Source: a virus
Strand: one strand, 5' to 3'
Length of the DNA stretch: 64,000 nucleotides
IMG/VR virus record: IMGVR_UViG_3300020178_000761
Location: 20,793 to 84,792 of that record
In this document: positions 29,012 to 56,493 of the stretch, one piece after another
How the letters are laid out: the number at the start of each line of letters is the position of its first letter
Numbering within the stretch: position 1 is the first letter of the stretch
Position numbers and translations under genes: made by a program
Notes under the pieces: generated by a model
What the model saw: only the letters and a program-made list of their open reading frames with translations
The model's database searches: none
What the model was told of the DNA's origin: nothing

Positions 29012-29347
29012 ATGAATAATTCCTTAACCGAATCGCTCGAATTCGCAAATCGAATGAAACAGTACAATAACCAATTACGGTTGTTAAAAGAAAAATGTCT
29101 TGAGAACAATGTCTATTACACTCAAGGACATCAGTTCACAATCGATCTTGCCTTAATAAACTATTGTTTAACATTCATTAATGTGAAAAAAACAAACGAA
29201 GCAATATTTTTAGATGATTATAATCTGCCTGTCAAAATTACAGATGTTCAAAATTTTTATGACAACATTATTGATCAATATCAAAATAATCTCAACTCGT
29301 ATTTTGTCGAATACAATCAATTGGTGAAAGACAAAGGTGAAATATAA
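29012..29347 (+). CDS. Small protein of unknown function, first gene of the island
   Basis: The 111-residue product is mostly helical by composition, with an N-terminal amphipathic stretch (SLEFANRMKQYNNQLRLLKE), a central NNVYYTQGHQFTID segment, and a C-terminal helix (NFYDNIIDQYQNNLNSYFVE). No domain is recognised. It begins about six bases after the predicted transcription start and has no ribosome-binding site, so it would be read from a near-leaderless mRNA. The next gene (glycosyltransferase-like) starts two bases after its stop, indicating cotranscription. It could be a partner or regulator of the following enzymes, but nothing in the sequence shows that. Confidence 0.6.
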   Translation: MNNSLTESLEFANRMKQYNNQLRLLKEKCLENNVYYTQGHQFTIDLALINYCLTFINVKKTNEAIFLDDYNLPVKITDVQNFYDNIIDQYQNNLNSYFVEYNQLVKDKGEI

Positions 29348-29349
29348 CA

Positions 29350-30159
29350 ATGTCAAAAGGTGTACTACTGTTTGCTCACAACAACAGCACTGTGGACTAT
29401 GTTAAGCAGGCTGACTTTTGTGCTAAACAGATTCAAAAACATTTAAAACTACCAGTGTGTCTGATCACTTCCAATGAAGTGTGTGAACAAAATAATTTTA
29501 ATCATGTTATTTTTGTAAAGTCTCCAGATCAAATACAAAAACGTTCATACTATGATGGCAACGAGCATCACAAAGACTTCTGGAATAACCAGTCGAGACC
29601 AGATGCTTATAAGTTAACCCCATATGAAGAAACTATTGTGATGGATACTGATTATATTGTATCCAACGACAGTTTGAACAAAGTGTTTGACAGTAAAGAA
29701 GATTTTTTAATTAATTACAAAGCACAACACGTAGATTTTAATTCTAAATACACAGACGAGATGAAATACGTGAGTGACACAGGTATTGAAATGTGCTGGG
29801 CAACAGTTTTTTATTTTAAAAAAACTGAAAGAACACGAATACTATTTGAATTAATAGATCACATAAGGAACGAATGGGAATTTTATAGATTCAAATATCA
29901 AATCACAAACACAAATTATAGAAACGATTTTGCTTTTGCGATTGCTTTACACATGATGAATGGTTTTGCCGAATCCCAATGGCCCAAACAACTGCCTTGT
30001 AAGTTATTTTATGTTACTGATAAAGATGTTGTAGAATCATACAGTAATAATCAATGGCATTTCACATTGCAAAGCGGTTTAAAATGTAAATTACAAGATA
30101 TGAATATTCATATCATGAATAAAATAGGTTTAAACAAAATAATAGAAGCACATGAATAA
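29350..30159 (+). CDS. Putative glycosyltransferase (GT-A fold, DxD) 1
   Basis: The 269-residue protein looks like a small GT-A-type glycosyltransferase. The N-terminal nucleotide-sugar side begins with a strand (GVLLFAHNNSTVDYVKQADF) and reaches the metal-binding DxD motif at residues 99-101 (TIVMDTDYIVSND). The acceptor side has DTGIEMCWATVFYFKK and NDFAFAIALHMMNG, similar in layout to GT8-like enzymes. No membrane segment is seen. Its paralogue follows directly, overlapping by eight bases. A role in transferring a sugar to a host or virion glycan is inferred from the fold; donor and acceptor are unknown. Confidence 0.65.
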   Translation: MSKGVLLFAHNNSTVDYVKQADFCAKQIQKHLKLPVCLITSNEVCEQNNFNHVIFVKSPDQIQKRSYYDGNEHHKDFWNNQSRPDAYKLTPYEETIVMDTDYIVSNDSLNKVFDSKEDFLINYKAQHVDFNSKYTDEMKYVSDTGIEMCWATVFYFKKTERTRILFELIDHIRNEWEFYRFKYQITNTNYRNDFAFAIALHMMNGFAESQWPKQLPCKLFYVTDKDVVESYSNNQWHFTLQSGLKCKLQDMNIHIMNKIGLNKIIEAHE

Positions 30160-30973
30160 AGGAATTGTATTATTTGTCCAACAAAACAGTAAGACTGATT
30201 ATTTAAAACAGGCTGTGGCGTGTGCTTTGAGTATTAAAAAATTTAATCCAACAGAAAAAGTTTGTTTGATTACAGATATAGAAGTACCTAGCAAATATCA
30301 ATCTGTGTTTGATGTTATAAAAGATATTCCAGGAGAGGATTTCGCTAAAGCAAGTGATTGGAAAGTGGAAAATAGATGTAAAATTTATGATATTGCTCCA
30401 TTTCAAAAAAATATTGTGCTTGATGTTGATATGTTGGTGTTAGAAAATATAGAACATTGGTGGACAGCATTAGAAAACTATGAATTATATTACACAAACA
30501 AAGTTAGAACATATAGAAATGAATGGGTAACCAGCAATTATTATAGAAAAGTTTTTGAAGAGAATCAGTTGCCAAACGTATATTGTGGTTTTCATTACTT
30601 TATCAAGAATGAAAACAATAAAAAGTTTTATGATACTCTTAAAGAAGTTGTCACAAACTACAAACAGTTTGCTAATAAATTTACAATACATCACACACAA
30701 AAATGGTGCAGTATGGATGTGGCAACTGCTATTGTAGTGAAAATGTTAAACAAGGAACACCAAGTATTTTCAAATCACAAATTTTTAACATTTACACATA
30801 TGAAGCCTAAATGTTTAAATTGGAAAAGTTCTGTAAATCATTGGAACGAACAATTAGATTATATGATGAATAAAAATTGTGAACTATTTGTAGGTAATAT
30901 TAAACAACAAGGAATTTTTCATTATGTTGAAGACAGTTTTTTAACAGAAGAAATTATGGAGTGTTTAAAATGA
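30152..30973 (+). CDS. Putative glycosyltransferase (GT-A fold, DxD) 2
   Basis: The 273-residue protein is a diverged paralogue of the preceding gene. It has the same opening strand (GIVLFVQQNSKTDYLKQAVA), KVCLITD as the second strand, and DxD at residues 91-93 (NIVLDVDMLVLEN). The acceptor half contains YCGFHYFIKN and a WCSMDVATAIVVKM helix matching the DFAFAIALHMM helix of its partner. Tandem arrangement suggests successive sugar additions or a hetero-pair. The stop overlaps the ATG of the next gene (ATGA), typical of translational coupling. The region is very AT-rich, about a quarter GC in places. The fold call is moderately firm and the specificity is unknown. Confidence 0.65.
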   Translation: MNKGIVLFVQQNSKTDYLKQAVACALSIKKFNPTEKVCLITDIEVPSKYQSVFDVIKDIPGEDFAKASDWKVENRCKIYDIAPFQKNIVLDVDMLVLENIEHWWTALENYELYYTNKVRTYRNEWVTSNYYRKVFEENQLPNVYCGFHYFIKNENNKKFYDTLKEVVTNYKQFANKFTIHHTQKWCSMDVATAIVVKMLNKEHQVFSNHKFLTFTHMKPKCLNWKSSVNHWNEQLDYMMNKNCELFVGNIKQQGIFHYVEDSFLTEEIMECLK

Positions 30974-31566
30974 ACATCAGACCACCTTTAACATTTGATG
31001 TAATTAAACCTGATGTAACACATTACATACATTTTAACCCTGAAACGGGTATACCGACTGGGTGTAGTGTTGAACAAAAAGGACACAGTGTTAAAATATC
31101 TGAAGAACTTGCCATACAAATTAAAAAAGGATACAAAAATTTATTAGATTATAGAGTGAAATTAGTAAACAACGAGTTTGTAGTTGAAACAAAAAATGCT
31201 TTACAAAATGTTACTCATAATCAAACGCACAGTAATTTGATAGAAAATAGAACAGTATATGAAATTAAAAAGAATAATAAAGATTCTTGTATAAGATTTG
31301 TATTAGATCTCAAACAAAAAGTTTGGAATGTAAGCATAGATACAGAACTAAAAAACAGTCTAAAAAATACGTTAAAGTCTCTAGATACTGTATATAAATT
31401 TTTTACAACATCAACAGACAATTCAGCATTGTTAGACTATGAATTTTTAATAGATATCAAAGAATTAATGTCTAAAGAAACATTAACTATGCCACATCAA
31501 TCAGACAGTATACCAAGATTGTTTTGTAGAAAAGTTTACAACTATTCATATGAGGTACACCAATGA
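30970..31566 (+). CDS. Protein of unknown function in glycosyltransferase cluster
   Basis: I chose the ATG at 30970, which overlaps the upstream TGA (ATGA), over a GTG nine bases earlier; the product has 198 residues. It is polar and lysine/asparagine-rich with no recognised domain. The N-terminal part (YIHFNPETGIPTGCSVEQKG) could be a beta-rich binding domain. The central part contains KDSCIRFVLDLKQKVWNV, and the last third is helical. No signal peptide or membrane helix is visible. It sits between two pairs of putative glycosyltransferases, with four-base overlaps on both sides, so it is probably part of the same pathway. I cannot assign a function. Confidence 0.6.
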   Translation: MNIRPPLTFDVIKPDVTHYIHFNPETGIPTGCSVEQKGHSVKISEELAIQIKKGYKNLLDYRVKLVNNEFVVETKNALQNVTHNQTHSNLIENRTVYEIKKNNKDSCIRFVLDLKQKVWNVSIDTELKNSLKNTLKSLDTVYKFFTTSTDNSALLDYEFLIDIKELMSKETLTMPHQSDSIPRLFCRKVYNYSYEVHQ

Positions 31567-32462
31567 TATTAAAAACATCAGATATGGATTTTATATTTTT
31601 AAGTTTAGATGAACCTAATGCAGATAAAAACTTTGCTGATCTAAAACGCAAAGTTCCATGGGCAAAACGTGTACACGGAGTAAAAGGATTTGATACTGCT
31701 CATAAACGTGCGGCTGAAATATCTGAATCAGAAAGATTTATAACTGTCGATGCTGATACGCAGATAGATGAAGAGTTTTTAAATGTGTTAGTAGACCTTA
31801 ATTCGTTGGGAGTTGATGACACTTATCAATTTAGTTGGTGTGGTAGAATTGATCTTAATGGTTTAAAGTATGGAAATGGCAGTTTAAAATGCTGGACAAA
31901 ATCATTTGTAAAAGATATGAAAACACACGAAAACCATGACGGTAAAAATAAAAACGTGATTGAATTTTGTCATTTTCCTAATTACTATCAATTTAATGAA
32001 AACTATTCTATCAGTTATATTGACGGATCACCTTATCAGGCTTGGAGAGCAGGATTCCGTGAAGGTGTTAAAATGAGTTTAGACAAAAATGTAAGACTGC
32101 CATTAAAACAGTTATGGTGGCAAAATTACCAAAGACTATTAGTTTGGATGTCAGTGGGCATGGATAATCCATTAGGAGTATATGCTATTCACGGAGCGAG
32201 AACAGGCTGTTATCTAACAACTTGTACAGATTGGGATTTTACTCAAGCAAATGAATATAGATATTTTGAAAAATATTGGAGATTTGAACTGCATGATGAT
32301 AAAACCACAGATTTTTATAAAGATAGTATTGAACTAGGTAGGAAAATTACTGCCGAGCATGAAATTGAATTGTCTATTGAACCATTGAGTGCTGAACAAA
32401 GTAAATTTTTTAAACAAGTATATCTTAATACACCAAGAATATGGAAAAGGAGAACGCTGTAA
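31563..32462 (+). CDS. Putative glycosyltransferase-like protein 3
   Basis: The 299-residue protein opens with MDFIFLSLDEPNADKNF and reaches a DxD-like motif at residues 63-65 (RFITVDADTQIDE), as in GT-A enzymes. A later segment (GSPYQAWRAGFREGVKM) is shared almost word for word with the next protein (PFSAWKSAFRECVKLS), as is the GVYAIHGARTG / DFAMDGAQQG segment, so the two are clear paralogues. The start overlaps the upstream stop (ATGA); a start at 31584 would align better with its paralogue. Sugar-nucleotide binding is suggested only by the DxD and the N-terminal Rossmann-like strands. The acceptor is unknown. Confidence 0.58.
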   Translation: MILKTSDMDFIFLSLDEPNADKNFADLKRKVPWAKRVHGVKGFDTAHKRAAEISESERFITVDADTQIDEEFLNVLVDLNSLGVDDTYQFSWCGRIDLNGLKYGNGSLKCWTKSFVKDMKTHENHDGKNKNVIEFCHFPNYYQFNENYSISYIDGSPYQAWRAGFREGVKMSLDKNVRLPLKQLWWQNYQRLLVWMSVGMDNPLGVYAIHGARTGCYLTTCTDWDFTQANEYRYFEKYWRFELHDDKTTDFYKDSIELGRKITAEHEIELSIEPLSAEQSKFFKQVYLNTPRIWKRRTL

Positions 32463-33160
32463 TGTATGATATTGTGTTCATAAGTTATAATGAGCCATTG
32501 GCTGATCACAATTACAAAACATTGTGCGAACGTTTTCCTATTGCCCAAAGAGTTAATAACGTTAAAGGAATTCATCAAGCACATATAGAAGCCGCCAAGT
32601 TAGCATTAACAAAAATGTTTTGGGTGGTGGATGGAGATGCTGTGATAGAAAAAGATTTTATGTTTAATTATGCAGTGCCAGAAAAAGATTTAACAGCAGT
32701 TCATGTGTGGCGCAGTCGCAATCCAATCAACGATTTACAGTATGGATATGGTGGTGTTAAATTATTACCAAGACGTATGACACTAGAAATGAACACAGAT
32801 ACCACAGACATGACAACCAGCATATCAAATAGATTTAGAGCAATGGAACAAGTTTCAAACATCACAGCATTCAATTCAGATCCTTTTAGTGCTTGGAAAT
32901 CAGCATTCAGAGAGTGTGTTAAGTTGAGCAGTCGAGTGATTGATAGACAAGAAGATCAAGAAACAGAAAAAAGATTGGATGCTTGGTGTACTCTTGGAGC
33001 AAATAGACCATACGGAGATTTTGCTATGGACGGTGCTCAGCAAGGTAAAAAATATGGTGAACAGAACAAAAACAATCCTGCACAATTAAAGTTGATCAAC
33101 GACTTCGATTGGTTGCAGAAATATTTCAAGGAGACGTGCAGTGTCAGTGAATATTACTAA
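32462..33160 (+). CDS. Putative glycosyltransferase-like protein 4
   Basis: The start was placed at 32462, where ATG overlaps the upstream TAA (TAATG), giving 232 residues beginning MYDIVFISYNEPLADHNY. This matches the opening of the preceding paralogue. The DxD-like motif is DGD at residues 57-59 (FWVVDGDAVIEKDF). The shared acceptor-side motif is PFSAWKSAFRECVKLS. It is shorter than its partner, lacking about 60 C-terminal residues. It overlaps the GTG-initiated radical SAM gene downstream by 20 bases, linking the two activities in one transcript. The function is inferred by fold pattern only; a non-transferase Rossmann-like protein is the alternative. Confidence 0.58.
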   Translation: MYDIVFISYNEPLADHNYKTLCERFPIAQRVNNVKGIHQAHIEAAKLALTKMFWVVDGDAVIEKDFMFNYAVPEKDLTAVHVWRSRNPINDLQYGYGGVKLLPRRMTLEMNTDTTDMTTSISNRFRAMEQVSNITAFNSDPFSAWKSAFRECVKLSSRVIDRQEDQETEKRLDAWCTLGANRPYGDFAMDGAQQGKKYGEQNKNNPAQLKLINDFDWLQKYFKETCSVSEYY

Positions 33161-34226
33161 TATACCTTTTGATAACATTGTGCGTTTTGGACAACAAACT
33201 ATGCTTGATAGAAAATTGTTCAATGTGAGTTGGATATTGGGCAGATTCTGTAATTATAATTGTTCGTATTGTTGGCCATATGCTCACAGTAAAAATGTTG
33301 ATCACAGACCATTACAGGTTTACAAAAATACTATTGATGAAATAAAATCCCAAGCAAGAGCAAACGGGTTTGATAGTTTTCATTTCAGTTTTTCAGGAGG
33401 AGAGCCCACAGCATACAAAAGATTTTTATCTGTTATTGAGCATTATGCCAACGACTCTATTGCAACATATCAAAGTTTACACATGACTACAAATGCTTCA
33501 CCAGGATTCAAATGGTGGAACATTTGGCTCAAAGCCACAGAACGTCTTGCACGTAGAAGCATCACAGCCAGTTTCCATCATGAGTTTGCTGACGAAGATG
33601 TATTTGGAGACAAATTACTAATGTTACAGGACTCAGCAGTATACGTCACAATTAATCAAGTGATGGTACCACACTTATTTGATGAACTGTATGAACGATG
33701 TGATAGGTTGCATAAACGTGGTATAAACGTAACTTTAAAACCACAAAGCAATGAATCAGCCAGTGAAATAGTAGATGGATACAATGATGAACAAATCAAA
33801 TTGATGAGAACAGGATTTCCTTTGAAATATAATGGAGTTTCGGCACAACAAATTCAGTTGACTGACCACAAAGGTACAAGTTATAATATAGATCAAGCAG
33901 AACGTTTTAATGCTTTTGGATTCAATAAGTTTAAAGGCTGGAATTGTCATGCTGGATATCAAAGTTGTATCATAAGAGAACCAGGTGGAGAAATAAAAAG
34001 AGCATACAGTTGTCATGATGAACCGTTAGGAACTATAGACAAAGGTTTTAAATTGTTTTCTAAACCGAATGCTTGTATCACGCCATCTTGTGTTAGTTCT
34101 GCAGACAGTAAAATTCCTAAGTTTAGAAAAATGGACTTTTTAGAAAATGCTTTACAAGAACAAGAAATGTTGGAAATTAGTAGGCAACAATCTGTAAGAA
34201 ATAAAAAGGAAAGAGCAAATGTATAA
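33141..34226 (+). CDS. Radical SAM enzyme with C-terminal cysteine cluster (type A paralogue 1)
   Basis: The 361-residue enzyme carries the radical SAM motif C37-x3-C41-x2-C44 (GRFCNYNCSYCW) and the SAM-binding FSFSGGEPT at about 84-90. The C-terminus has WNCHAGYQSCIIREPGGEIK, then a Cys near DEPLG and a paired ACITPSC, a SPASM/twitch-like layout for an auxiliary Fe-S cluster. This C-terminal pattern is shared with the genes at 39120 and 40006, making a three-member paralogous set. Translation starts at GTG with AAGGAG eight bases upstream. Radical SAM enzymes of this layout act on peptides, proteins or sugars; the substrate here is unknown. The neighbouring glycosyltransferases make a glycan substrate plausible. 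Confidence 0.85.
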   Translation: MSVNITNIPFDNIVRFGQQTMLDRKLFNVSWILGRFCNYNCSYCWPYAHSKNVDHRPLQVYKNTIDEIKSQARANGFDSFHFSFSGGEPTAYKRFLSVIEHYANDSIATYQSLHMTTNASPGFKWWNIWLKATERLARRSITASFHHEFADEDVFGDKLLMLQDSAVYVTINQVMVPHLFDELYERCDRLHKRGINVTLKPQSNESASEIVDGYNDEQIKLMRTGFPLKYNGVSAQQIQLTDHKGTSYNIDQAERFNAFGFNKFKGWNCHAGYQSCIIREPGGEIKRAYSCHDEPLGTIDKGFKLFSKPNACITPSCVSSADSKIPKFRKMDFLENALQEQEMLEISRQQSVRNKKERANV

Positions 34227-35205
34227 GTTAACAGACATAAGAGATGTACACTTGGAAATAACCAGCAAGTGTCAAGCCAAGTGTCCTATGTGTCCTCGTA
34301 GAATACAAGGTGGACCGTTAAATCCTTTTATACATTTGGATGAAATCACATTGGATAGATTCAAACAATGGTTTCCTGATAATTTTATACAGCAATTGGA
34401 CAGTATGTTTATGTGTGGTAACTTGGGAGATCCTATTGTGAGCAAAGACACACTGGAAATATATCAACACCTAAGAACTGTAAACCCTAAAATAAGATTG
34501 GCGATGCACACCAACGGCAGTGCTAGAGACACAGACTGGTGGACTAAACTAGCAAAATTACAGGTAAAAGTAACTTTTGGTATAGACGGACTTGCAGACA
34601 CTAATCATTTATATCGTGTATCCACAGACTTTGAAAAAATTATCGATAATGCCAAAGCATTTATACAAGCAGGCGGGTTTGCCAAATGGCATATGTTGGT
34701 TTTCAAACACAATGAACATCAGGTGGAAACAGCAGAACAGATGTCAAAAGATTTAGGATTTAAAATGTTCACCACAAAACACACTTCAAGATTTAAAGGA
34801 GATTACCTACAAGTGATAGATGAGCAAGGTCGTCCCACACACAGATTGGAACCCACGCAAAAAAGTCGAGATATGATTCCATTGGTAGAACAATCACAGC
34901 AAGAAACAACACCTACCATTGTGTGCAAAGCAGTTAAGAACAAACAGATTTATGTGAGTGCTTGTGGTAATGTGTCACCTTGTTGTTGGTTGGATATGGA
35001 GTGGATACCACCCATGCAGGAGAGCAGAATAGACTATATGACTAGAATTGGCGAGTTTCCGAATTTAAATACAAGTAGTCTAAAAGAGATATTTGAAAAC
35101 GGTTATTTTGACAAGATTGAACAAACATGGAGTCACTCACCGCTACAAGAATGTGGCAAACAGTGTGGATCATTTGACAAACTAGGAGCTCAATTTGAGA
35201 ATTAA
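34219..35205 (+). CDS. Radical SAM enzyme with SPASM-like C-terminus
   Basis: The 328-residue protein has C18-x3-C22-x2-C25 (EITSKCQAKCPMCPRR) near its N-terminus, a typical position. In place of GGEP the second strand reads FMCGNLGDPIVSKD, as in SPASM-type enzymes of the MoaA/SkfB-like superfamily. C-terminal cysteines (TIVCKAV, SACGNVSPCCW, CGKQCG) should hold an auxiliary 4Fe-4S cluster. It is only distantly similar to the type A paralogues next to it. It overlaps the upstream gene by eight bases and the downstream TTG-started methyltransferase-like gene by eleven. The C-terminal SPASM pattern favours a peptide or protein substrate, but this is family knowledge, not shown here. Confidence 0.82.
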   Translation: MYKLTDIRDVHLEITSKCQAKCPMCPRRIQGGPLNPFIHLDEITLDRFKQWFPDNFIQQLDSMFMCGNLGDPIVSKDTLEIYQHLRTVNPKIRLAMHTNGSARDTDWWTKLAKLQVKVTFGIDGLADTNHLYRVSTDFEKIIDNAKAFIQAGGFAKWHMLVFKHNEHQVETAEQMSKDLGFKMFTTKHTSRFKGDYLQVIDEQGRPTHRLEPTQKSRDMIPLVEQSQQETTPTIVCKAVKNKQIYVSACGNVSPCCWLDMEWIPPMQESRIDYMTRIGEFPNLNTSSLKEIFENGYFDKIEQTWSHSPLQECGKQCGSFDKLGAQFEN

Positions 35206-43802: not shown

Positions 43803-43816
43803 TTTATGGACAAAGA

Positions 43817-43823
43817 TATTTAT
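43817..43823 (-). promoter_or_regulatory. Late-promoter-like CGATAAATA element before PP-loop gene
   Basis: On the minus strand cgATAAATA ends 15 bases before the ATG at 43802, in the 65-base divergent gap. The same nine bases precede the fibre gene at 26614. No clear ribosome-binding site follows it. Confidence 0.45.
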
Positions 43824-43842
43824 CGTTATTAAGTACGCACAT

Positions 43843-43860
43843 TATAATTTACGATAAGTA
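43843..43860 (+). promoter_or_regulatory. Possible promoter elements for the plus-strand oxygenase operon
   Basis: The divergent gap contains a perfect TATAAT (43843-43848) without a good -35 box 17 bases upstream (TTATCG), and a late-element variant gATAAGTA (43853-43860) that ends eight bases before the ATG at 43868. Either could drive the plus-strand genes; neither is convincing alone. Confidence 0.3.
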
Positions 43861-43867
43861 TAGTAAT

Positions 43868-46235: not shown

Positions 46236-46807
46236 ACAAAACATTAAAGTTTGATTACTTTCCTTTATTGAGATCAAATTATGATGCCAACGAATTGGTC
46301 ACAGACGGTTTATTAGTGGATCAATTGAACGTGCATTGGAATGACAACAACATTTTTAAAGACATTCAGTCCAGCAAAGAAACTGCCGAAAAAGGTTCCA
46401 TCAATAGAACTATAGATATAGAAGTTAAAGATAGCAATAAAATGTTGTTACAAAACAAACAAGTTTGGAATGAAGACAGTATAGAACTTAAGGCTGAAAT
46501 TGATTTAACATCAAAAGGAAATGATATATGGAACTTAAAGTTTGTGTATAACTTAACAACCTGTGCTGATCAAGATTATGAAAATTTTAACAAAAAGTTT
46601 GGCATTAATGATGAACTATTTCATTTCAAACTTAACGGAGAAGCCTTGATATACAATGAAGAAATTAGAGGCGGTAAAAATATGACAGCACAAAAAGATT
46701 TCTATTGGAGAGGGAAAAATCCTATATTGTTCGAACTAGAAGAATATGGCACAGGGATAGATAGAGACAGTAGATTTATTCAAATAGTGAGATTTACAAT
46801 TATATGA
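46232..46807 (+). CDS. Protein of unknown function in oxygenase operon
   Basis: The 191-residue protein is beta-rich and charged, with no cysteine cluster, metal triad or membrane segment. Segments such as SINRTIDIEVKDSNKMLLQN and NDIWNLKFVYNLTTC suggest a beta-sandwich. It overlaps its neighbours by four bases at each end, so it is translated with the oxygenase pair and the dehydrogenase-like gene. It could be a substrate-carrying or binding protein. I recognise no family. Confidence 0.55.
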   Translation: MNKTLKFDYFPLLRSNYDANELVTDGLLVDQLNVHWNDNNIFKDIQSSKETAEKGSINRTIDIEVKDSNKMLLQNKQVWNEDSIELKAEIDLTSKGNDIWNLKFVYNLTTCADQDYENFNKKFGINDELFHFKLNGEALIYNEEIRGGKNMTAQKDFYWRGKNPILFELEEYGTGIDRDSRFIQIVRFTII

Positions 46808-47358
46808 AAATAGTAATAACAGGCAGTACATCACCAATGGGTAAAGCAGTGTACGAACATTATTCAAAAGAACATGAATGCTTAGGAGTCAGCAGAAGCA
46901 CAGGGTATGATTTAACTAACGCAGAAGATCAAAACAGATTGGTATCGGAGACATTGGCACGTGATGTATTTTTGAATATAGCCCACATTGGCACTGCTCA
47001 GTCTACGTTGTTATTGAAATTAAAACAACGGTGGTCTCCAGAAGCACCGCTGAAAAAAGTTATCACAATAGGATCACTGGCAACCAAAGTACCCAAGAAA
47101 TTATTAGATCAGGTGGGTATTGATAAACAATATCTCAGAGACAAACATCACATAGATGCCGTACACAATTCGTTAGCCAATGAAATGCCTTTTGGTTCTC
47201 AATTACAATTCAGTCTTGTAAGAGTACTCAACTACGGAGAAAAAACTGGAGAACGATCTGGTGAACCCACTTGTACAGTTAAAGATATTGTACGTACCAC
47301 TGATTATTTGATTAATGAACCTATGTATATTTCTACTCTAGACGTTCGACGTTTTTAA
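46804..47358 (+). CDS. Short-chain dehydrogenase-like NAD(P)-binding protein 1
   Basis: The 184-residue protein begins with the Rossmann motif KIVITGSTSPMGKAVYEHY (TGxxxxxG at about 6-13), followed by LGVSRSTGYDLTN, and FLNIAHIG in the position of the NNAG motif. KVITIGSLAT gives the serine strand and IDKQYLRDKHHID is where YxxxK is expected. The exact catalytic YxxxK is not evident, so it may be an atypical SDR. Its closest relative here lies at 51824 on the minus strand. The stop overlaps that of the convergent gene by four bases (TTAA), so no terminator separates the two operons. Confidence 0.65.
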   Translation: MKIVITGSTSPMGKAVYEHYSKEHECLGVSRSTGYDLTNAEDQNRLVSETLARDVFLNIAHIGTAQSTLLLKLKQRWSPEAPLKKVITIGSLATKVPKKLLDQVGIDKQYLRDKHHIDAVHNSLANEMPFGSQLQFSLVRVLNYGEKTGERSGEPTCTVKDIVRTTDYLINEPMYISTLDVRRF

Positions 47359-47981
47359 AATACAACATCTTTAAATAGAACAAGTGCGTCCTCAAATTGT
47401 ATATGAGTATTGTCTTCTATTGTTAGTAAATGATAACTTAACGTCCAACGCGGTTCACTGGTATTAAAATTATGTGTCGAATGTAATTGTCCTACATTAA
47501 GCAAACTAGGATGATTAATCACCGCTTCATGTACCACATCACAGTCTTCCACTTCCGCATGATAAAATTTATCTACAGGAATATCGACATCTATGTCTTT
47601 AAAATAAACCTCTTTGTGATAATCTGTGTTATCTCGCTCTGTTTGTATTAGTGATTCGTCTTTAACTTTGTACCATCTTACAATACTGTCTTGTGGTCCC
47701 CATGTAAAATTAATGTTTGATGAATTGTTCAACGTAGGAGCGTCATTGTGCATTGGTAACCCGCCACCATTAGGACCATTATAAAATGCTTCACACACAT
47801 TTGAAGGTTTTAATCCAAACCCCTTTAACCAATCAACAAATCTTTCGTCCCAATGTTCTCTTGTAGCACACCATTCATGCCAATTTTCACCACGCATATT
47901 TTCTGGCTTTGATTTGAAACAGTCTGGAAACTTATGCTCAAATGGCAATTTTACATAACGGTGATATATGTTTTTATTCAT
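47355..47981 (-). CDS. 2OG-Fe(II) oxygenase-like protein 5
   Basis: The 208-residue protein has H78-N-D80 (GGLPMHNDAPTLNN) as a probable metal motif, then a late H-S-T-H (GQLHSTHNFNTSEPRWTLSY) with R178 in the 2-oxoglutarate position. The preceding minus-strand gene is a tandem paralogue with the same opening (YHRYVKLP / YHRYVKIP), INFTWGP and SLLNVGQLHST. The family is of Asp/Asn hydroxylase type by pattern, not by any detailed match. It starts eight bases inside the upstream gene. The substrate is unknown. Confidence 0.66.
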   Translation of the reverse strand: MNKNIYHRYVKLPFEHKFPDCFKSKPENMRGENWHEWCATREHWDERFVDWLKGFGLKPSNVCEAFYNGPNGGGLPMHNDAPTLNNSSNINFTWGPQDSIVRWYKVKDESLIQTERDNTDYHKEVYFKDIDVDIPVDKFYHAEVEDCDVVHEAVINHPSLLNVGQLHSTHNFNTSEPRWTLSYHLLTIEDNTHIQFEDALVLFKDVVF

Positions 47982-48585
47982 ATGTAACTTCCTTGAATAT
48001 ATTTAATGCTTTTTCAAACTGTAAATGTTTATAATCTTTATCAAGTAAAAAATAACACAACGACCAACGCCCTTGTACGGGGTCTGGATTGTATGTAGAG
48101 TGCAGTTGTCCAACATTAATCAAACTGGGTTGATTTATGACTTTTTCACATACTAATTCACATTGATCTTCACTTTCGCAAATTAATTCTTTGTGTACAC
48201 CGTTGCTATCAAAATGATCCACAATGTCTGGTTTAACTGTTTCTGTTATGTGTGAACTATCTGTGATATCCGTTTTTAAATATGATTCATCTTTAACATT
48301 CCACCATCTTGTGGTGCTGGTATCCGGACCCCAAGTAAAATTAATTTTTGTAGCATTGGTTATTGTGCTGGTATCATTGTGTATGTGCACCTTTCCTTGA
48401 TTAGGAGGAGTATAGATACCTTCTGTAACATTAGAAACAATTACTTCAAAGGATTCAATCCAATCTATTACTGATTGATCTAGATCCGTTTTGGGAACAA
48501 ATATCACTTCCGATTGAGAAGGTTCATAGGAAAAACAAGATGGCTTTTTGTGTTCCTTAGGTATTTTTACATATCTATGATACAT
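47974..48585 (-). CDS. 2OG-Fe(II) oxygenase-like protein 6
   Basis: This 203-residue paralogue of the downstream gene keeps H69-N-D71 (GKVHIHNDTSTITN), INFTWGPDTSTTRWW, and a C-terminal GQLHSTYNPDPVQGRWSLCY. The second His of HSTH is replaced by Tyr, which marks the first His as the likely metal ligand. It begins three bases after the stop of the larger oxygenase gene, so three putative oxygenases form one minus-strand operon. A lineage-specific duplication is the simplest explanation. The substrate is unknown. Confidence 0.66.
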   Translation of the reverse strand: MYHRYVKIPKEHKKPSCFSYEPSQSEVIFVPKTDLDQSVIDWIESFEVIVSNVTEGIYTPPNQGKVHIHNDTSTITNATKINFTWGPDTSTTRWWNVKDESYLKTDITDSSHITETVKPDIVDHFDSNGVHKELICESEDQCELVCEKVINQPSLINVGQLHSTYNPDPVQGRWSLCYFLLDKDYKHLQFEKALNIFKEVTYE

Positions 48586-48586
48586 T

Positions 48587-49393
48587 TTAATAATTGGATA
48601 AATGATCTATGCCTATCTGCTTTCTGAACTTGTCTGTGAATACACAATCAATACGTAGTCCGTATTCTTGTTCATTGCTGACATCACCACCATGCCAATC
48701 TTGATCATTCCAAAATGCCGCGTTGGCATTGATGTAGGTTTTGTTTTTTGCTTCAGGATTCCAAATATAGAATCCTCTTTTTGTGCTGTGCCTAATGTGT
48801 ATGAATTCATTGCGATGATCAGTATAACCTTGATCATCACCGTGTTTGCCATCAAGGTCTCTGTGTTCAAATGGTTTACCATCATGTTCGCAGTGGAAAA
48901 ATATCACTCTACCTATGCTTTCAATGATGCCCGTGTTTACTAATTCTTTGATCCAAGCAACCACACCTGGAAAATATTTTGCTTCTTCTGTGATGTTTCG
49001 TTCAGCATTTCTATGATCCCAATCTCCTTCTTCCCAAAGGAAATAATATATGTAAGGATCATTGGCTCCTAACACAGACTTCAAATATCTTGTGAATTGA
49101 TTTCTGGTTTTGTAATCTTTAATATTGTTGTACAAGTCGTCACCATTTTTTCTAATAGGATGATCCTGAGGCAGTGCTTTGTATTCTTCCAAAGCCATAT
49201 AAATTGGTTTCCAATTCAGAGTGTAACTCATGTCTTTAGGATCAAATCCTGGTGACATCCAGGTGCCTTCTTTGGCATATTCTCGTGCGAGAGCAAAACC
49301 TCTACATATTTCTGGATGTAGTTGTTTGAAACTGTCTATGTCTATGTGGTCATCTAGACTGATGTATGGTTTACCGCCAATTCCTCTAATCAT
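48587..49393 (-). CDS. 2OG-Fe(II) oxygenase-like protein 7
   Basis: The start is placed at the ATG at 49393 (MIRGIGGKPYISLDDH, 268 residues) because a longer reading would run into the divergent gene. The metal triad is H177-x-D179 (GKPFEHRDLDG), H234 (NDQDWHGGDVSN) and R247 (YGLRIDCVF). N-terminal residues 1-165 form a helical domain not seen in the smaller paralogues. It is divergent from the plus-strand gene at 49433, with only 39 bases between the starts. A GTAAATAC element on the minus strand of that gap is a weak late-promoter candidate. Confidence 0.7.
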   Translation of the reverse strand: MIRGIGGKPYISLDDHIDIDSFKQLHPEICRGFALAREYAKEGTWMSPGFDPKDMSYTLNWKPIYMALEEYKALPQDHPIRKNGDDLYNNIKDYKTRNQFTRYLKSVLGANDPYIYYFLWEEGDWDHRNAERNITEEAKYFPGVVAWIKELVNTGIIESIGRVIFFHCEHDGKPFEHRDLDGKHGDDQGYTDHRNEFIHIRHSTKRGFYIWNPEAKNKTYINANAAFWNDQDWHGGDVSNEQEYGLRIDCVFTDKFRKQIGIDHLSNY

Positions 49394-49432
49394 CAAAGTA
49401 TTTACTTTTAAATACAGTACAAATAAATTATC

Positions 49433-50005
49433 ATGGCTTTTAAATTGGTACCATATTCTGACGACTTGAATCTTGAAACATTTTATCAAACAGCCAAACA
49501 AAAAGGATTTGTCAACAACTCAACCAAAAAAATGTTGGTAGATTCTCTGTCCCGAGAAGACAGATATCAGGTTTGGATGCTGTTGTGGAATGACAGAGTG
49601 ATTGGATCCACAGCGGCACATTCATTTCCTGAAATGGGTCCTGACAGTTATCGTATTGCTTGTCGTATCTGCACATTCACTGATGAACTGCCGAAAGAGT
49701 ATCAAGTGGTGCGTACTAGAGACACCATAAGAAATCATCAAACTACCACGCAACAATTTTTTCAACCAGCAGGCATACGTTGGGCAGGTGAAAATAAAAA
49801 TTACTATGTGACCACAAATGAAAACGCAGAAGGCACACAACGACTGGTACATTCTATTGTGGCTCCTACTCTGGAAAGTGTGGGTGTTTATACCAGAGTG
49901 AAAGATATGGATTACAGAGGTACACTTCAAACTGTGTGGCGTGTGAACGCTGATGTGTATTTTAAACAACTTGAACAAGTAAAACAATGGCCCACTTATG
50001 AGTGA
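49433..50005 (+). CDS. Unknown protein, possibly acetyltransferase-fold
   Basis: The 190-residue protein has a helix-strand layout (DLNLETFYQTAKQKGFVNN, then VWMLLWNDRVIGSTAAHSFP and YRIACRICTFTDEL) that loosely recalls a GNAT acyltransferase, where a residue pair after the second strand binds CoA. However, the diagnostic Q/RxxGxG/A loop is not clear. The central NHQTTTQQFFQPAGIRWAGE is distinctive. No ribosome-binding site is seen before the ATG, and a weak ATAAATT element precedes it in the 39-base divergent gap. It overlaps the kinase-like gene downstream by eight bases. The function is unassigned. Confidence 0.55.
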   Translation: MAFKLVPYSDDLNLETFYQTAKQKGFVNNSTKKMLVDSLSREDRYQVWMLLWNDRVIGSTAAHSFPEMGPDSYRIACRICTFTDELPKEYQVVRTRDTIRNHQTTTQQFFQPAGIRWAGENKNYYVTTNENAEGTQRLVHSIVAPTLESVGVYTRVKDMDYRGTLQTVWRVNADVYFKQLEQVKQWPTYE

Positions 50006-50684
50006 TTTCAAATACTATTACAACAATGTGCCAGGCAAAGGACTGTGTAGAAACAATTTAATTTATACCAGTCTAATCAACGAAGATGCCACAGAGTTTT
50101 GTATGTGGTTTCACAATGATTCAGAATATCATAAAGGTCACAATGAAGTGGTGGATCCTGCACTGATGGAAATGAAGTACCATAGAGAAAAAGATTTCTT
50201 ACTGTGGTTGGATATTGATCACAAACAGTTGATCCCTCGCACCACACGTTTTGATCCAGATGATCAAAAGATATATTTTGAAATACAAGGTGTAGATTTT
50301 TGGGAACAAAGCCATGGCAAAACATATGCTGACGTATTGCCTAATTGGCAAGAGCAGATGCTGTACATAATGGAAACACACAAACAGTTGGGCATATACA
50401 AATACAGTCTACATCCTAGCAGTTATTTTGTTATTGATGGAGAATTAAGAACAATCAATTACTTCTTTGCTTACAGAAAGGACGAAACACCCATCACAGT
50501 ACAAGAACACATGAGTCATATTTCCAAAGAAAGACAAAAAGAACTGTTGCCTAAAATGAAACAGATGGGTATAGAAATGGACAATACATATCCATTTGAT
50601 CAACTACAGATACTGTGTCTGGAAAGTTTTAGAAATGTATACCCAGACAGTTTTATTGACAAGGCAATTTCACTCTATAAGTAA
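49998..50684 (+). CDS. Kinase-fold-like protein 2, function unknown
   Basis: The 228-residue protein is a diverged relative of the gene at 44535. Both share a strand-rich N-terminal lobe, LPNWQEQMLYIMETHKQLGI / VPNWQDKIKAIKDDLEKDNI, and KYSLHPSSYFVIDGELRTIN / KINMYPHTFYFDDEDNAYIM. The second segment sits where kinases carry the catalytic and metal-binding loops. No HxD or DFG is kept here, so catalytic activity is doubtful. The last 60 residues form helices. It overlaps the unknown gene upstream and ends four bases before the class-D-like radical SAM gene. Confidence 0.52.
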   Translation: MSDFKYYYNNVPGKGLCRNNLIYTSLINEDATEFCMWFHNDSEYHKGHNEVVDPALMEMKYHREKDFLLWLDIDHKQLIPRTTRFDPDDQKIYFEIQGVDFWEQSHGKTYADVLPNWQEQMLYIMETHKQLGIYKYSLHPSSYFVIDGELRTINYFFAYRKDETPITVQEHMSHISKERQKELLPKMKQMGIEMDNTYPFDQLQILCLESFRNVYPDSFIDKAISLYK

Positions 50685-50688
50685 TAGT

Positions 50689-51831
50689 ATGCAGGATACA
50701 AAAACCACAAGCCTATGCCACATATGTTATCGTCACTGTGAAGCAGAACGAGTGACCAAAACTGATGGAGTATATTTGATAAAGACTTGTCCAGAGCACG
50801 GAACTTCAAGTTATTTGGTAGAACAAGACATAGATTTCTATAATTCATTGATTTATGATAAATCAGGATATTCAATACCTCAAGGCATAATGATTGAAGT
50901 TACAGATAAATGTAATTTGAATTGCCCACACTGTTATCATAAACCAGACAACAAAACACAAGATAAACCTGTAGAACAAATACTTTACCAAATAGAACAT
51001 AGATTTAATGCTGACGCAGGTGCTGTGATATTAGCAGGTGCTGAACCAACTGTGAGAAAAGATTTACCTGAATTAATTGTACAAATTAAAAAATTACTTA
51101 AAAAATTAGGAAGACCTGAAGATGTGTGTATTCTTACAAATGGTGTAAAACTCTCCGATAGAGCATGGGTTAAAAAAATTGCTGAAGCAGGCACAAACAT
51201 GGTTATGATAGGTATGAATCATCACTCTTATCAAGGTAAGAAAGTACATGAGAAACAATTAAAAGGAATTGACAATTGTATTGCAGAAGGAATATTTGTC
51301 TACTATGTTGGATATACGTTGGAACACATTGACCATATGGAAGAAGTACTGGAAGAAATACAAGCATTAGGTAATCGTGCTTGGCAATATAGAATTAGAG
51401 CAGGTTCAGATATTGGCAGAGCACCAGATGAACCTCAATTCTTTTTGAGCAGACACGTTGCTAAGATAAAAGAAATTTGTGATCGCAAAGGTTGGACTTG
51501 GGAAAAGAAACCTGCTGATGATAATTTATATCACTTCATGGTAAACATAAATGGTATCACTCATAGAATTATACAATGGAGTGATCCTAAAACAATTGAT
51601 ATGGAACAATTACAATGTGGTCCTTGGTGTGATTTTGTACCCGGCAAACCTGTTACAAATTTCTTACATCAAATCATGTTGCGTGATGCTGTGGTCAATG
51701 AAGGCCAGACTTTGCATGACACTGTGCCAAACAAATACTTGTTTCAACCTGAAAATGTTGACTACGAAGTTACAGAGTGGACATTTAAGAGTTGGGACGA
51801 TTCCAAACAAAAGCAGAAAAAAACTATTTAG
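50689..51831 (+). CDS. MJ0619/Tes-like (class D) radical SAM enzyme
   Basis: Starting at the ATG at 50689 (380 residues), the protein opens with a cysteine-rich head (SLCHICYRHCEAE, then IKTCPEHG). This is the layout of the archaeal MJ0619/tetraether-synthase group and related radical SAM proteins. The catalytic motif is C75-x3-C79-x2-C82 (TDKCNLNCPHCYHK). The SAM-binding strand reads LAGAEPTVRKDLPELI, with GAEP in place of GGEP. Known relatives methylate or couple unactivated carbons of pterin side chains or lipids, but specificity cannot be transferred. There is no clear ribosome-binding site; coupling with the gene four bases upstream is likely. It converges on the SDR-like gene with eight bases of overlap. 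Confidence 0.75.
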   Translation: MQDTKTTSLCHICYRHCEAERVTKTDGVYLIKTCPEHGTSSYLVEQDIDFYNSLIYDKSGYSIPQGIMIEVTDKCNLNCPHCYHKPDNKTQDKPVEQILYQIEHRFNADAGAVILAGAEPTVRKDLPELIVQIKKLLKKLGRPEDVCILTNGVKLSDRAWVKKIAEAGTNMVMIGMNHHSYQGKKVHEKQLKGIDNCIAEGIFVYYVGYTLEHIDHMEEVLEEIQALGNRAWQYRIRAGSDIGRAPDEPQFFLSRHVAKIKEICDRKGWTWEKKPADDNLYHFMVNINGITHRIIQWSDPKTIDMEQLQCGPWCDFVPGKPVTNFLHQIMLRDAVVNEGQTLHDTVPNKYLFQPENVDYEVTEWTFKSWDDSKQKQKKTI

Positions 51832-52414
51832 GTTTGTAATCTAATTGTGTAGCATCAACAGTTACACTCTGAAAATACATAGTTTCACACAGTAACATTT
51901 TAATGATCCATTTGGAAAGTTCTTTAGGATCTATTTTATTTCCTTGTAGGTACTCACTAATCTGTGTGTCAGTGCATCCTAATATAACATTTAATATGTG
52001 TGGTCCATACACATTGATACGGTTTTCTATAATTCTATTTTGTTCTTTTTTAGCATTGCCATAATTTTCCATAAAATCATTTGTATCTGAATTATTGTAA
52101 CAAGACTTAGAACTTAAATTTAATATTTTTTTATCTTTATCGCCTTCCCAAACATTGATCATTAATTTTAACATTTCTGTTTGTCCATTAAATTGATCTA
52201 TCTCTGTCATAGGAAGATCACCGTCGGGCCAAGCACAATTGATGAATATGTCTGCGTGTTTGGATTGTTCTAAAATACTCTGTCTTGATTCGGCAATGCT
52301 GATATCAAATCCATTACTTCGGGAGAAACCTTGTACATCATGACCCGATTGAATAAGATCGTTATATAAACACTTGCCTATGCCTTTGGAGTGTCCAGTT
52401 ATTCGGACTATCAT
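51824..52414 (-). CDS. Short-chain dehydrogenase-like NAD(P)-binding protein 2
   Basis: The 196-residue protein starts with a Rossmann motif (IVRITGHSKGIGKCLYND, TGxxxGIG at about 6-13). It continues with VQGFSRSNGFDIS (compare LGVSRSTGYDLTN in the 46804 gene), IFINCAW at the NNAG position, KILNLSSKS with the catalytic-type serine, and a YGNAKKEQNR stretch containing YxxxK. It is therefore a better SDR candidate than its paralogue. It lies five bases downstream of the fourth fibre gene and would be expressed with it. The substrate is unknown; a nucleotide-sugar is plausible in this context. Confidence 0.72.
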   Translation of the reverse strand: MIVRITGHSKGIGKCLYNDLIQSGHDVQGFSRSNGFDISIAESRQSILEQSKHADIFINCAWPDGDLPMTEIDQFNGQTEMLKLMINVWEGDKDKKILNLSSKSCYNNSDTNDFMENYGNAKKEQNRIIENRINVYGPHILNVILGCTDTQISEYLQGNKIDPKELSKWIIKMLLCETMYFQSVTVDATQLDYKPK

Positions 52415-56408: not shown

Positions 56409-56414
56409 ATTATT

Positions 56415-56443
56415 ATAATACTTTCTTTTGGTAAATTAGTCAA
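56415..56443 (-). promoter_or_regulatory. Sigma70-type promoter for VWA gene
   Basis: On the minus strand TTGACT (56443-56438) and TATTAT (56420-56415) are 17 bases apart. The predicted start falls at or beside the ATG at 56408, so the transcript would be leaderless. An overlapping TATAAT three bases downstream is an alternative -10. Confidence 0.65.
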
Positions 56444-56454
56444 CCGTTTTTTGG

Positions 56455-56483: not shown

Positions 56484-56493
56484 TTCAACACTT

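Follow-up and report, generated by a model that had tools for sequence, protein, structure and literature searches.

Phage modules that combine several radical SAM (rSAM) enzymes were known before, and the island analysed here is another variant of these. Multi-rSAM Campylobacter phages were reported in 2010 (PMC2853527) and a T4-like marine genome of 183 kb with 12 rSAM genes in 2017 (PMC5332604). The cultured Campylobacter phage CP220, which like CPt10 is described as distantly T4-like (PMC3322345), has 11 rSAM matches; five rSAM genes are followed by two genes with nucleotide-sugar-transferase domains and, about 10 kb on, by a tail fibre gene. Its paper terms the five-rSAM part interchangeable between the two phages and suggests a metabolic role (PMC2853527), and in the available sections of that paper and related literature we found no substrate named for phage rSAM clusters. 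Pelagimyophages carry a host recognition cluster in which glycosyltransferases lie in an island among tail fibre genes (PMC7029224, as available in part). The content of the cluster is variable; in Pelagibacter phage Mosig the annotated genes include rSAM-like, 2OG/Asp hydroxylase, GNAT and methyltransferase genes and an epimerase type. The 255-kb Vibrio phage K566 has six rSAM matches, of which five fall inside a 17-kb stretch.

Our locus lies in IMG/VR record IMGVR_UViG_3300020178_000761 (84,792 b, presumably a fragment), and coordinates below refer to the window, the stretch of 64,000 nt that was analysed. Profile matches to a T4-type portal (phrog_213, 393 bits) and a T4-type major head protein (phrog_138, 338 bits) assign this phage to the T4-superfamily myoviruses. 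Atu_ph07 (490 kb) and Phosso (469 kb) give the best portal matches, at 50-52%. The locus belongs to T4-superfamily phages, probably of jumbo type (genome >200 kb). The island comprises 30 genes, whose tight packing is borne out by their coordinates. They do switch strand, in six blocks (+,-,+,-,+,-) and not gene by gene, and the overlaps are generally of 1-20 bases as claimed, apart from a few of 50-90 bases which come from TTG starts and are smaller with a downstream ATG. Its position between fibre genes holds, with tail/fibre PHROGs and a virion protein homologue on the left and one Mtd_N gene on the right; no fibre gene was found among the genes scanned to the right of F_375.

22352..24379, + strand: tail/fibre protein of the backbone, left of the island (PHROG tail protein, 77.8 bits)
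26614..28083, + strand: F_489, fibre-like backbone protein (best PHROGs unassigned in function; the third a tail-fibre PHROG, 51.7 bits)
28096..28962, + strand: F_288, virion protein homologue (PA5oct), left border, candidate target or carrier
52419..53546, - strand: F_375, fibre/tropism protein, right border here (PF18454 Mtd_N, 45.6 bits)

F_288 marks the fixed left border of the island. Its homologue in phage PA5oct, EST35_0123, is annotated ESI-MS/MS (seen in virions by mass spectrometry) and ends its strand block there, followed by small unknown ORFs on the opposite strand. Of the 20 large records from relatives, 17 have an F_288-like gene, one of them a partial copy, and three show none. 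The F_288 model (pLDDT 87.6) gives weak fold matches, with a best Z of 6.6 and galectins at about 5. The weakly lectin-like part of the model is its C-terminal half.

Immediately behind F_288 lies a block of putative glycosyltransferases with two small companions.

29012..29347, + strand: gene 01, 111 aa, adjoining F_288 (weak match to a PHROG of unassigned function)
29350..30159, + strand: GT02, glycosyltransferase-like (DTD as DxD motif)
30152..30973, + strand: GT03, glycosyltransferase-like (DVD as DxD motif)
30961..31566, + strand: gene 04, fast-evolving (dN/dS 0.26; no Pfam or PHROG match)
31563..32462, + strand: GT05, related to GT06 (the GT06 profile A2 also matches the GT05 place in a bacterial locus)
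32441..33160, + strand: GT06, core GT-A-like glycosyltransferase (invariant D64 and D66)

None of the four GT-like genes has a Pfam match over cut-off, and the assignment as glycosyltransferases, which agrees with the original prediction, draws on other evidence. The AlphaFold model of GT06 (pLDDT 90.2) has GT-A-like structural neighbours, and the predicted GT-A fold with its conserved DxD makes it a putative glycosyltransferase, although IspD-type nucleotidyltransferases score as high as GT-A proteins against this model. GT02, GT03 and GT05 are glycosyltransferase-like by DxD motif and resemblance.

Seven rSAM genes follow, as had been predicted. Exactly seven genes in the whole 84,792-b record exceed the PF04055 cut-off, all of them inside the island at 33.1-51.8 kb.

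33141..34226, + strand: rSAM07 (PF04055, 50.2 bits)
34219..35205, + strand: rSAM08 with a C-terminal SPASM (PF04055, 40.3 bits; PF13186, 25.0 bits)
37817..39127, + strand: rSAM12, N-terminal twitch rSAM (NF033640, 329.8 bits; cut-off 170)
39063..40016, + strand: rSAM13 (PF04055, 57.2 bits)
40006..40968, - strand: rSAM14 (PF04055, 44.5 bits)
40965..42383, - strand: rSAM15, N-terminal twitch rSAM (NF033640, 400.6 bits; cut-off 170)
50596..51831, + strand: rSAM29 with an HMPTM-type zinc ribbon (PF04055, 73.3 bits; PF23545, 50.1 bits)

The CxxxCxxC motif is intact in all seven. In relatives, 588 of the 589 distinct ORFs attributed to these genes (E<1e-20, length ratio 0.85-1.3) retain it. The N-twitch cut-off is reached by genes 12 and 15, the other five being below it or not among the matches listed. 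Two candidate identities were rejected on score: rSAM29 reaches 76 bits against a cut-off of 450 for the tetraether lipid synthase Tes (NF045702), despite its zinc ribbon, and genes 07, 13 and 14 reach 39.6, 57.8 and 48.6 bits against 180 for viperin (NF038283). N-twitch and SPASM rSAM enzymes often act on peptides, and the two N-twitch proteins and one SPASM protein here would fit enzymes whose substrate is a small, ribosomally made peptide (RiPP) from the island itself; among the best 25 matches per protein none of the seven reaches the NCBIfam cut-off of a RiPP rSAM maturase, and we regard this explanation as highly improbable.

The number of rSAM genes had been called unusual even for large phages. 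This is only partly right: it holds in comparison with the isolated jumbo phages Atu_ph07 and Phosso (four matches each), Munch (one), PA5oct and Paride (none), but not with K566 (six), CP220 (11) or the T4-like genome with 12.

Seven genes can be counted as probable 2OG-Fe(II) oxygenases, in agreement with the number first proposed.

35796..36500, + strand: gene 10, Asp/Asn hydroxylase-type 2OG oxygenase (PF05118, 35.8 bits; cut-off 22.6)
43868..44542, + strand: gene 18, 2OG oxygenase (invariant H78, D80, H122 and R132)
45148..45684, + strand: gene 20, probable 2OG oxygenase (invariant H101, D103 and H158)
45681..46235, + strand: gene 21, probable 2OG oxygenase, 34% to gene 20 (conserved motif)
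47355..47981, - strand: gene 24, probable 2OG oxygenase (invariant H78, D80, H167 and R178)
47974..48585, - strand: gene 25, probable 2OG oxygenase, 43% to gene 24 (conserved motif)
48587..49501, - strand: gene 26, probable 2OG oxygenase (invariant H213, D215, H270 and R283)

Only gene 10 exceeds the PF05118 cut-off. Gene 18 scores 17.2 bits and its alignment matches a solved 'Beta-hydroxylase' in PDB profiles (E 6.8e-14), while genes 20, 21, 24, 25 and 26 have no Pfam match over cut-off and are placed by an HxD, an H further along and a basic residue, all invariant or nearly so in their alignments. At motif level (HxD...H facial triad plus basic residue), genes 18, 20, 21 and 24-26 qualify as 2OG-Fe(II) oxygenases, with predicted binding of iron and 2OG.

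The remaining genes are diverse, and several were assigned by eye.

35195..35809, + strand: gene 09, methyltransferase-like by eye (conserved GGWxG; no family match)
36484..37872, + strand: gene 11, 462 aa (no Pfam or PHROG match)
42370..43008, - strand: gene 16, SGNH-like (PF13472, 17.8 bits, below the cut-off of 32.9)
42981..43802, - strand: gene 17, PP-loop protein, distantly QueC-like (phrog_1550, 21.2 bits)
44511..45155, + strand: gene 19, kinase-like by eye (invariant K, H and D positions)
46232..46807, + strand: gene 22 (no Pfam or PHROG match)
46804..47358, + strand: gene 23, SDR-like (RmlD, 15.3 bits, below the cut-off of 27)
49433..50005, + strand: gene 27, GNAT-like by eye (no family match)
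49998..50684, + strand: gene 28, resembling gene 19 by eye (no family match)
51824..52414, - strand: gene 30, SDR (PF01370, 21.7 bits; cut-off 20.9)

The predicted PP-loop gene is confirmed by the SGGxDS motif and four Cys residues kept in gene 17. Other labels stand in part: gene 30 is just over its SDR cut-off but gene 23 falls below, gene 16 remains SGNH-like with a sub-threshold profile score, and gene 09 keeps its GGWxG but is methyltransferase-like by eye only. The SGGxDS and Cys site of gene 17 look QueC-like, and the gene may serve another pathway, such as that of 7-deazaguanine. Were gene 17 a divergent QueC, the island could modify phage DNA with hypermodified bases, as the presence of GTP cyclohydrolase I (61570-62244) and a QueE-like eighth rSAM (60678-61577; PF04055 22.5 bits, below the cut-off of 29.5) would suggest, together with QueD, which four of 22 related records contain, the four being two pairs of similar sequences. 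Both window genes lie outside the island, however, a PF06508 match sought in gene 17 was not found, and the general family scans turned up no DNA-modification gene among the other island genes; we consider this very unlikely.

Both content and order are conserved in diverged phages. In the 34 viral loci where gene 15 is flanked by 8 kb on either side, all 34 have homologues of 08, 09, 12, 13 and 18, and 31-33 have those of 06, 07 and 17, which argues against independent occurrence of the genes. Purifying selection is evident in 23 of the 30 genes (dN/dS 0.017-0.26) and in gene 09 (pN/pS 0.24), and the rSAM15 alignment A1 has a mean column identity of 84%. Gene order was followed in 80 GT06-seeded loci, 30 with 9 kb upstream and 46 with 6 kb downstream. 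Upstream, the 30 loci hold GT05 (28), GT02 (26), GT03 (26), gene 01 (21), F_288 (18) and gene 04 (14); in 15 of the 18 loci with F_288, the end of this gene lies 3.49-3.63 kb ahead of GT06, on the same strand, and in the other 12 of the 30 it is not within reach. Downstream, a locus holds anywhere from 0 to 6 rSAM ORFs. The series F_288-01-GT02-GT03-GT05-GT06 is the most constant part of the island and the rSAM number behind GT06 varies; the relatives form a natural series, with only the glycosyltransferases at one end and 6-13 rSAM matches per record at the other. In one locus (L287), GT06 is followed by ThyX and then the window's backbone genes with no rSAM between. Two simple variants have a single rSAM-like gene; L257 encodes an NDP-sugar epimerase (150.2 bits) and L270 a UDP-glucose/GDP-mannose dehydrogenase (71.6 bits). 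On the original proposal of one pathway, these data, with the co-occurrence of two of the genes in bacteria given below, are good support for genes that belong together, with a link to the fibre genes stronger than supposed; a host glycan and a virion protein are both possible targets.

With GT06 or F_288 as query, tblastn finds no match in CP220, and rSAM08 matches at 26%; CP220 has an amidinotransferase and its annotation shows no 2OG gene in the stretch. In Mosig, only 08, 14 and 09 of the 30 island proteins are best-assigned, at 24-29% in a 40.5-kb stretch; Mosig has two rSAM matches and aminotransferase, carbamoyltransferase and nitroreductase genes, and pelagimyophages are also smaller. 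Their cluster is defined as the fibre island between VrlC and the neck gene gp14, and the likeness here is one of content and fibre neighbourhood. K566 has 22.8% identity to gene 15, with only genes 12 and 15 matched in a 30.9-kb stretch. TARA_ERS488813_N000010, compared by its description, is T4-like, marine and rSAM-rich, and that description includes an Fe-S A-type carrier (PMC5332604), of which none was found in 22 related records (fragments) here.

The reading we favour, tentatively, is that the island is a cytoplasmic glycan/protein-modification locus acting most likely on the virion tip, with a putative product. It would be one inherited biosynthetic locus placed just after the gene that closes the tail-tip operon, in which the soluble GT-A-type GT02, GT03, GT05 and GT06 assemble a short glycan in the cytoplasm, on F_288 or on a fibre next to it, while the target, presented by gene 01 and perhaps gene 04, is being made. 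The rSAM enzymes, 2OG hydroxylases, methyltransferase-like protein and SDR may then rewrite the sugars or surrounding peptide by epimerisation, deoxygenation, C-C or C-S bonds or hydroxylation, and the variable downstream block would give a phage-specific decoration that tunes adsorption or shields the tip. Arguing for this are the order from F_288 to GT06, the F_288-like gene in most of the large records, the virion homologue in PA5oct, the Mtd-type right border, the variable rSAM count behind GT06, the nucleotide-sugar enzymes of the two simple variants, the low dN/dS, the gene set of a bacterial contig (L107, below) and the lack of any membrane-helix-like stretch in the 30 island proteins (top 19-residue mean hydropathy 1.52; the usual threshold for a membrane helix is 1.6). 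A parallel would be the phage-encoded virion glycosylation of mycobacteriophages (Freeman 2023, cited in PMC12619734), in which virion proteins likewise receive glycans, but there capsid and tail tube are modified, and rSAM enzymes are not named in the available part of PMC12619734. Against a virion-tip target stand the loci and records without F_288, the PA5oct and Paride genomes, which have an F_288 homologue and no rSAM match, the weak lectin-like fold match and the possible 7-deazaguanine role of gene 17; adjacency to fibre genes is, moreover, no substrate test.

The main rival, which we rate as possible, is that a host surface glycan is remodelled during infection, for superinfection exclusion or receptor masking, and that co-evolution with receptor-binding genes explains the adjacency. 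In the available part of PMC7029224, the fibre-linked glycosyltransferase genes of pelagimyophage host recognition clusters, also with rSAM cassettes, are read as host O-antigen modifiers, which weighs against a virion-tip target. The nucleotide-sugar enzymes and the weakly lectin-like half of the F_288 model also speak for this rival, but gene order ties GT02, GT03 and gene 01 to F_288, and the family scans, in which many genes have no match at all, named no flippase or polymerase. Gtr-type O-antigen conversion operons encode a membrane flippase and a membrane glycosyltransferase, and the hydropathy result sets the island apart from them and counts against the host-glycan rival.

On the virion-tip reading, the island offers a concrete candidate substrate, its core recurring in many environmental viral contigs in one place beside a virion protein homologue. 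If the tip is modified, phage receptor-binding proteins would carry chemistry that is not predictable from sequence alone, a point of relevance to host range. The enzymes represent unexplored chemistry; for gene 15, for example, no solved structure of similar sequence is found at E 0.001.

Part of the core also occurs in bacteria. GT05/06 with rSAM07/08/15 are found in Bdellovibrionia assemblies away from fibre genes and with F_288 not nearby, which suggests that these genes do not depend on F_288, in keeping with the host-glycan rival and against a tip target. Among 143 genomes of this class, GT06 occurs in 11 and F_288 in none (a search without positive control), and two island genes occur in 11 and 14, both together in eight. 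Such bacterial modules with rSAM and GT genes, the large variety of enzymes and the small-molecule substrates of some rSAM relatives would suit a free small molecule or cofactor made for the infected cell, an unlikely explanation that leaves the tie to fibre genes and the fixed order of four GT-like genes unaccounted for. It is also possible, though less likely than not, that the island is a swappable assembly line, part of whose core was exchanged with Bdellovibrionia, in which N-twitch/SPASM rSAM enzymes and 2OG oxygenases rewrite a glycopeptide on the receptor-binding tip to give an adhesion surface built by radical chemistry. The bacterial contig L107 carries an F_288 homologue, 01, GT02, GT03 and GT05 beside rSAM15, rSAM07 and a fused GT05-GT06.

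The island (positions 29012–52414; genes 01–30) is a single inherited unit. A strict scan with gene 15, one of its seven radical SAM (rSAM) genes, returned 110 viral stretches, and a wider scan at least 586 with a relative at E 1e-3, possibly including paralogues, from which the best 80 (73–100% identical) were kept. Both scans together gave 123 viral loci, with the full gene 15 ORF in 121 and 8 kb on both sides in 34; these 34 are contig fragments, skewed to close relatives, and reduce to 22 after collapsing at 98% identity of gene 15. The original prediction had taken the genes as one set and, consistent with this, they do not occur independently in relatives: homologues (best-assigned tblastn match, E 1e-4) of rSAM08, rSAM12, rSAM13, the methyltransferase-like gene 09 and the 2OG-oxygenase-like gene 18 were found in 34/34 loci, those of rSAM07 in 33, the glycosyltransferase-like gene GT06 in 31, the PP-loop gene 17 in 31, rSAM14 in 25 and GT05 in 22, although some 26–40% matches counted as rSAM presences, above all for 08 and 13, may be paralogues. 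Other members are scattered (gene 24 in 3 loci, 25 in 13, 26 in 24, 29 in 10 and 30 in 7). Each of 20 large records, hand-picked for length and including one nearly identical to the virus of the window (L010) and three look-alike pairs (L127/L128, L120/L122 and L049/L052), contains 6–13 rSAM matches, look-alikes included.

The genes are also maintained. Relatives contributed 589 distinct ORFs to the seven rSAM genes, and 588 of these have the rSAM motif CxxxCxxC intact, so that the concern that catalysis might mostly be broken is not borne out; this is the informative count, the H.D and D.D patterns of the same survey being loose and weak proof. Across three loci, dN/dS was 0.017–0.26 for 23 genes, values which are only rough because dS is close to saturation (pS 0.44–0.78); gene 09 was saturated (pN/pS 0.24), and six of the 30 genes (01, 02, 03, 19, 29 and 30) had no usable orthologue. 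Co-occurrence, gene order, dN/dS and CxxxCxxC retention together rule out chance clustering or decaying genes.

The island is tied to a tail-tip gene at its left border:

28096–28962, F_288, a virion protein homologue that directly precedes the island

The only matches of F_288 among 50,697 phage records (E 0.001) were in ten records of PA5oct-group Pseudomonas jumbo phages, at 24–27% identity. In PA5oct, the annotation marks the homologue and most neighbours on its upstream side as detected by ESI-MS/MS, and the homologue closes its gene block, after which small unknown ORFs follow on the opposite strand; the surrounding gene order in Paride is the same. F_288-like genes are present in 17 of the 20 large island-bearing records, and several loci found with GT06 carry two or three tandem copies. 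F_288 had no PDB match at E 0.001; it gave three strong structural matches among predicted viral proteins, with uninformative names, and a fold comparison reached Z at most 6.6 (VIA).

Gene order was followed further using GT06 as the seed, for which at least 593 viral stretches have a relative at E 1e-3, possibly including paralogues; the best 80 (59–76% identical) were kept. Thirty of these extend 9 kb upstream, and there GT05 was found in 28, GT02 and GT03 in 26 each, gene 01 in 21, F_288 in 18 and the fibre-like gene F_489 in 16, with the end of F_288 lying 3.49–3.63 kb from GT06 in 15 of the 18 loci that bear it. Within 6 kb downstream (46 loci), the number of rSAM ORFs was zero in 5, one in 7, two in 2, three in 8, four in 11, five in 10 and six in 3; because the search relied on profiles of the window's seven rSAM genes, these counts can miss other rSAM ORFs. 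Two of the five rSAM-free loci (L249, L273, L275, L287 and L295) lie in surroundings that appear unrelated by eye (L275 and L295), and in L287 ThyX and then backbone genes of the window come after GT06, without an intervening rSAM gene. Two simple variants with one rSAM-like gene encode a sugar epimerase (L257, 150.2 bits) and a UDP-glucose/GDP-mannose dehydrogenase (L270, 71.6 bits), respectively. Since the upstream order is steady while the downstream rSAM number ranges from 0 to 6, the fibre-plus-glycosyltransferase part is the more constant part of the island and the radical/oxygenase block looks like an elaboration on it. At the right border, F_375 begins with a domain of the major-tropism-determinant type (N-terminal); a homologue of it is present in only 6/34 loci, and this border is therefore either less constant or outside the fetched flanks.

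The window is bases 20793–84792 of a virus record of 84,792 bases, and all seven rSAM genes above the PF04055 cut-off in the whole record lie at 33.1–51.8 kb of the window. Genes 12 and 15 clearly belong to NF033640 (N-terminal twitch rSAM; 329.8 and 400.6 bits versus a cut-off of 170), and the other five fall below every curated cut-off among the families listed. Gene 29 carries an HMPTM-type zinc ribbon; its assignment as a tetraether synthase (Tes) was rejected at 76 bits versus the 450 needed, as was membership of any island rSAM in the viperin or RiPP-maturase families among those listed, whose cut-offs were not reached. By sequence, rSAM07 matches ten solved chains, which belong to sulfatase maturases, viperin-like proteins and rSAM proteins without a name. 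Gene 10 scores above cut-off as a 2OG oxygenase of the Asp-hydroxylase type. In the alignments of the six further 2OG-oxygenase-like genes, HxD is conserved together with an H further along and a basic residue; gene 18 has a profile match to a solved beta-hydroxylase. Sequence searches returned no solved relative for genes 09, 15, 17, 20/21, 26 or GT06, and genes 18, 26, GT03 and GT06 had no match among the 50,697 phage records at E 0.001. Phage Fe–S supply genes were discarded as partners, an A-type carrier (PF01521) being present in 0/22 records, which are fragments. The GT06 model is confident and GT-A-like (pLDDT 90.2, pTM 0.83), and its DxD aspartates are invariant in the alignment. Its structural neighbours include the PBCV-1 capsid glycosyltransferase (Z 9.3), COLGALT1 (Z 8.7) and IspD (Z up to 11), the last of which means that the fold by itself is no proof of sugar transfer.

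The 30 island proteins lack membrane-helix-like stretches (mean hydropathy at most 1.52), family scans of these proteins yielded no flippase or polymerase, and a virion gene adjoins; for these reasons we rank modification of the virion tip first, as a tentative reading, and modification of the host surface second, as a rather doubtful one. Soluble enzymes encoded next to a virion gene fit the decoration of a virion protein in the cytoplasm better than they fit the rebuilding of a surface polymer. The strongest fact against the host-surface reading is the order F_288-01-GT02-GT03, and the strongest against modification of the virion tip is an enzyme core in bacteria that lacks F_288.

These bacterial copies came from scanning genomes with an alignment of gene 15; of the 23 loci obtained, 15 are 44–52% identical, and 14 of those are labelled Bdellovibrionia, Bdellovibrionales or Oligoflexia. 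Five loci in metagenome-assembled genomes (L092, L093, L098, L101 and L103) each carry between four and six of GT05, GT06, rSAM07, rSAM08, gene 09 and rSAM15; the contigs of L092 and L098 are 494 and 937 kb, and the surroundings of L092 look by eye like ordinary chromosomal genes. Among 143 genomes of the class Bdellovibrionia, GT06 (E 1e-15) was found in 11, gene 15 (E 1e-90) in 14 and both in 8 (Fisher p 1.2e-7, a value that ignores shared ancestry), and F_288 in none; the F_288 search had no positive control. L107 lies in an assembly that is not one of the GT06-positive genomes in this class. There, gene 01, GT02, GT03, GT05 and a homologue of F_288 (26%) adjoin rSAM15, rSAM07 and a fused GT05-GT06, preceded by pheS, pheT, trmD and rplS (neighbours named by eye). 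From this pattern the module seems to consist of two halves, one fibre-linked (F_288, 01, GT02, GT03 and the fast-evolving gene 04) and the other an enzyme core (GT05, GT06, rSAM07, 08, 15 and gene 09) that seemingly can exist without the fibre gene. Three genomes of the class (G021, G128 and G135) have 33–42 first-look N-twitch rSAM candidates, 11 scored in each, hinting at large paralogue families. A 47-kb contig of the Rickettsiales-labelled assembly MED657 (GT06 at 58%, many N-twitch-like rSAM matches) may come from a phage that was binned with it, as probably does a 3.5-kb contig labelled Thermoplasmata that carries a 75%-identical gene 15.

T4-related phages with multi-rSAM modules are already known. 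Eleven rSAM genes are reported for CP220 and 12 for CPt10, with a central part containing five termed an interchangeable module (Timms et al. 2010; PMC2853527); in 2017 a T4-like marine genome of 183 kb was reported to hold 12 (PMC5332604); pelagimyophage host recognition clusters combine glycosyltransferases with rSAM cassettes (PMC7029224); and rSAM and glycosyltransferase genes are abundant in Tasman Sea viral samples (PMC7150976). Our analysis likewise gave 11 matches in CP220, a culturable comparator. Its stretch at 62–90 kb ends with a tail fibre gene and also encodes a QueD-like protein, an amidinotransferase, two proteins with nucleotide-sugar-transferase domains and five rSAM proteins whose genes nearly adjoin. 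Control phages had 4 (Atu_ph07), 4 (Phosso), 1 (Munch), 2 (Mosig), 6 (K566) and, for the PA5oct and Paride genomes, 0 matches each. In searches of open-licence papers we recognised no description of the conserved core, its site behind a virion protein, the series from glycosyltransferase-only to rSAM-rich loci or the bacterial copies, which does not prove that none exists.

Outside the island, a QueE-like rSAM gene (22.5 bits, below cut-off) adjoins GTP cyclohydrolase I (160.7 bits) at 60678–62244, possibly as part of a 7-deazaguanine pathway, and QueD is present in 4/22 related records. Taken with these genes, gene 17 could act in that pathway as a divergent QueC, making its island membership uncertain; as a member of the QueC family proper it was rejected (cut-off not reached, no PF06508 match), and PF06508 was found in 0 of the 22 related records. 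The portal and major head proteins of the window are T4-type (PHROG profiles). The best portal matches (50–52% identical) are in 470–490-kb phages of Agrobacterium and Sinorhizobium, which makes it most likely that the record is part of a jumbo genome. Within the tail operon, 7061–21712 is one ORF of 4883 aa, which, judged by gene order, perhaps corresponds to EST35_0128, a giant virion protein in PA5oct. At 55158–57606, a metallopeptidase-like/VWA protein (DUF2201) adjoins an AAA ATPase with MoxR-type matches, a pair that is kept in L287.
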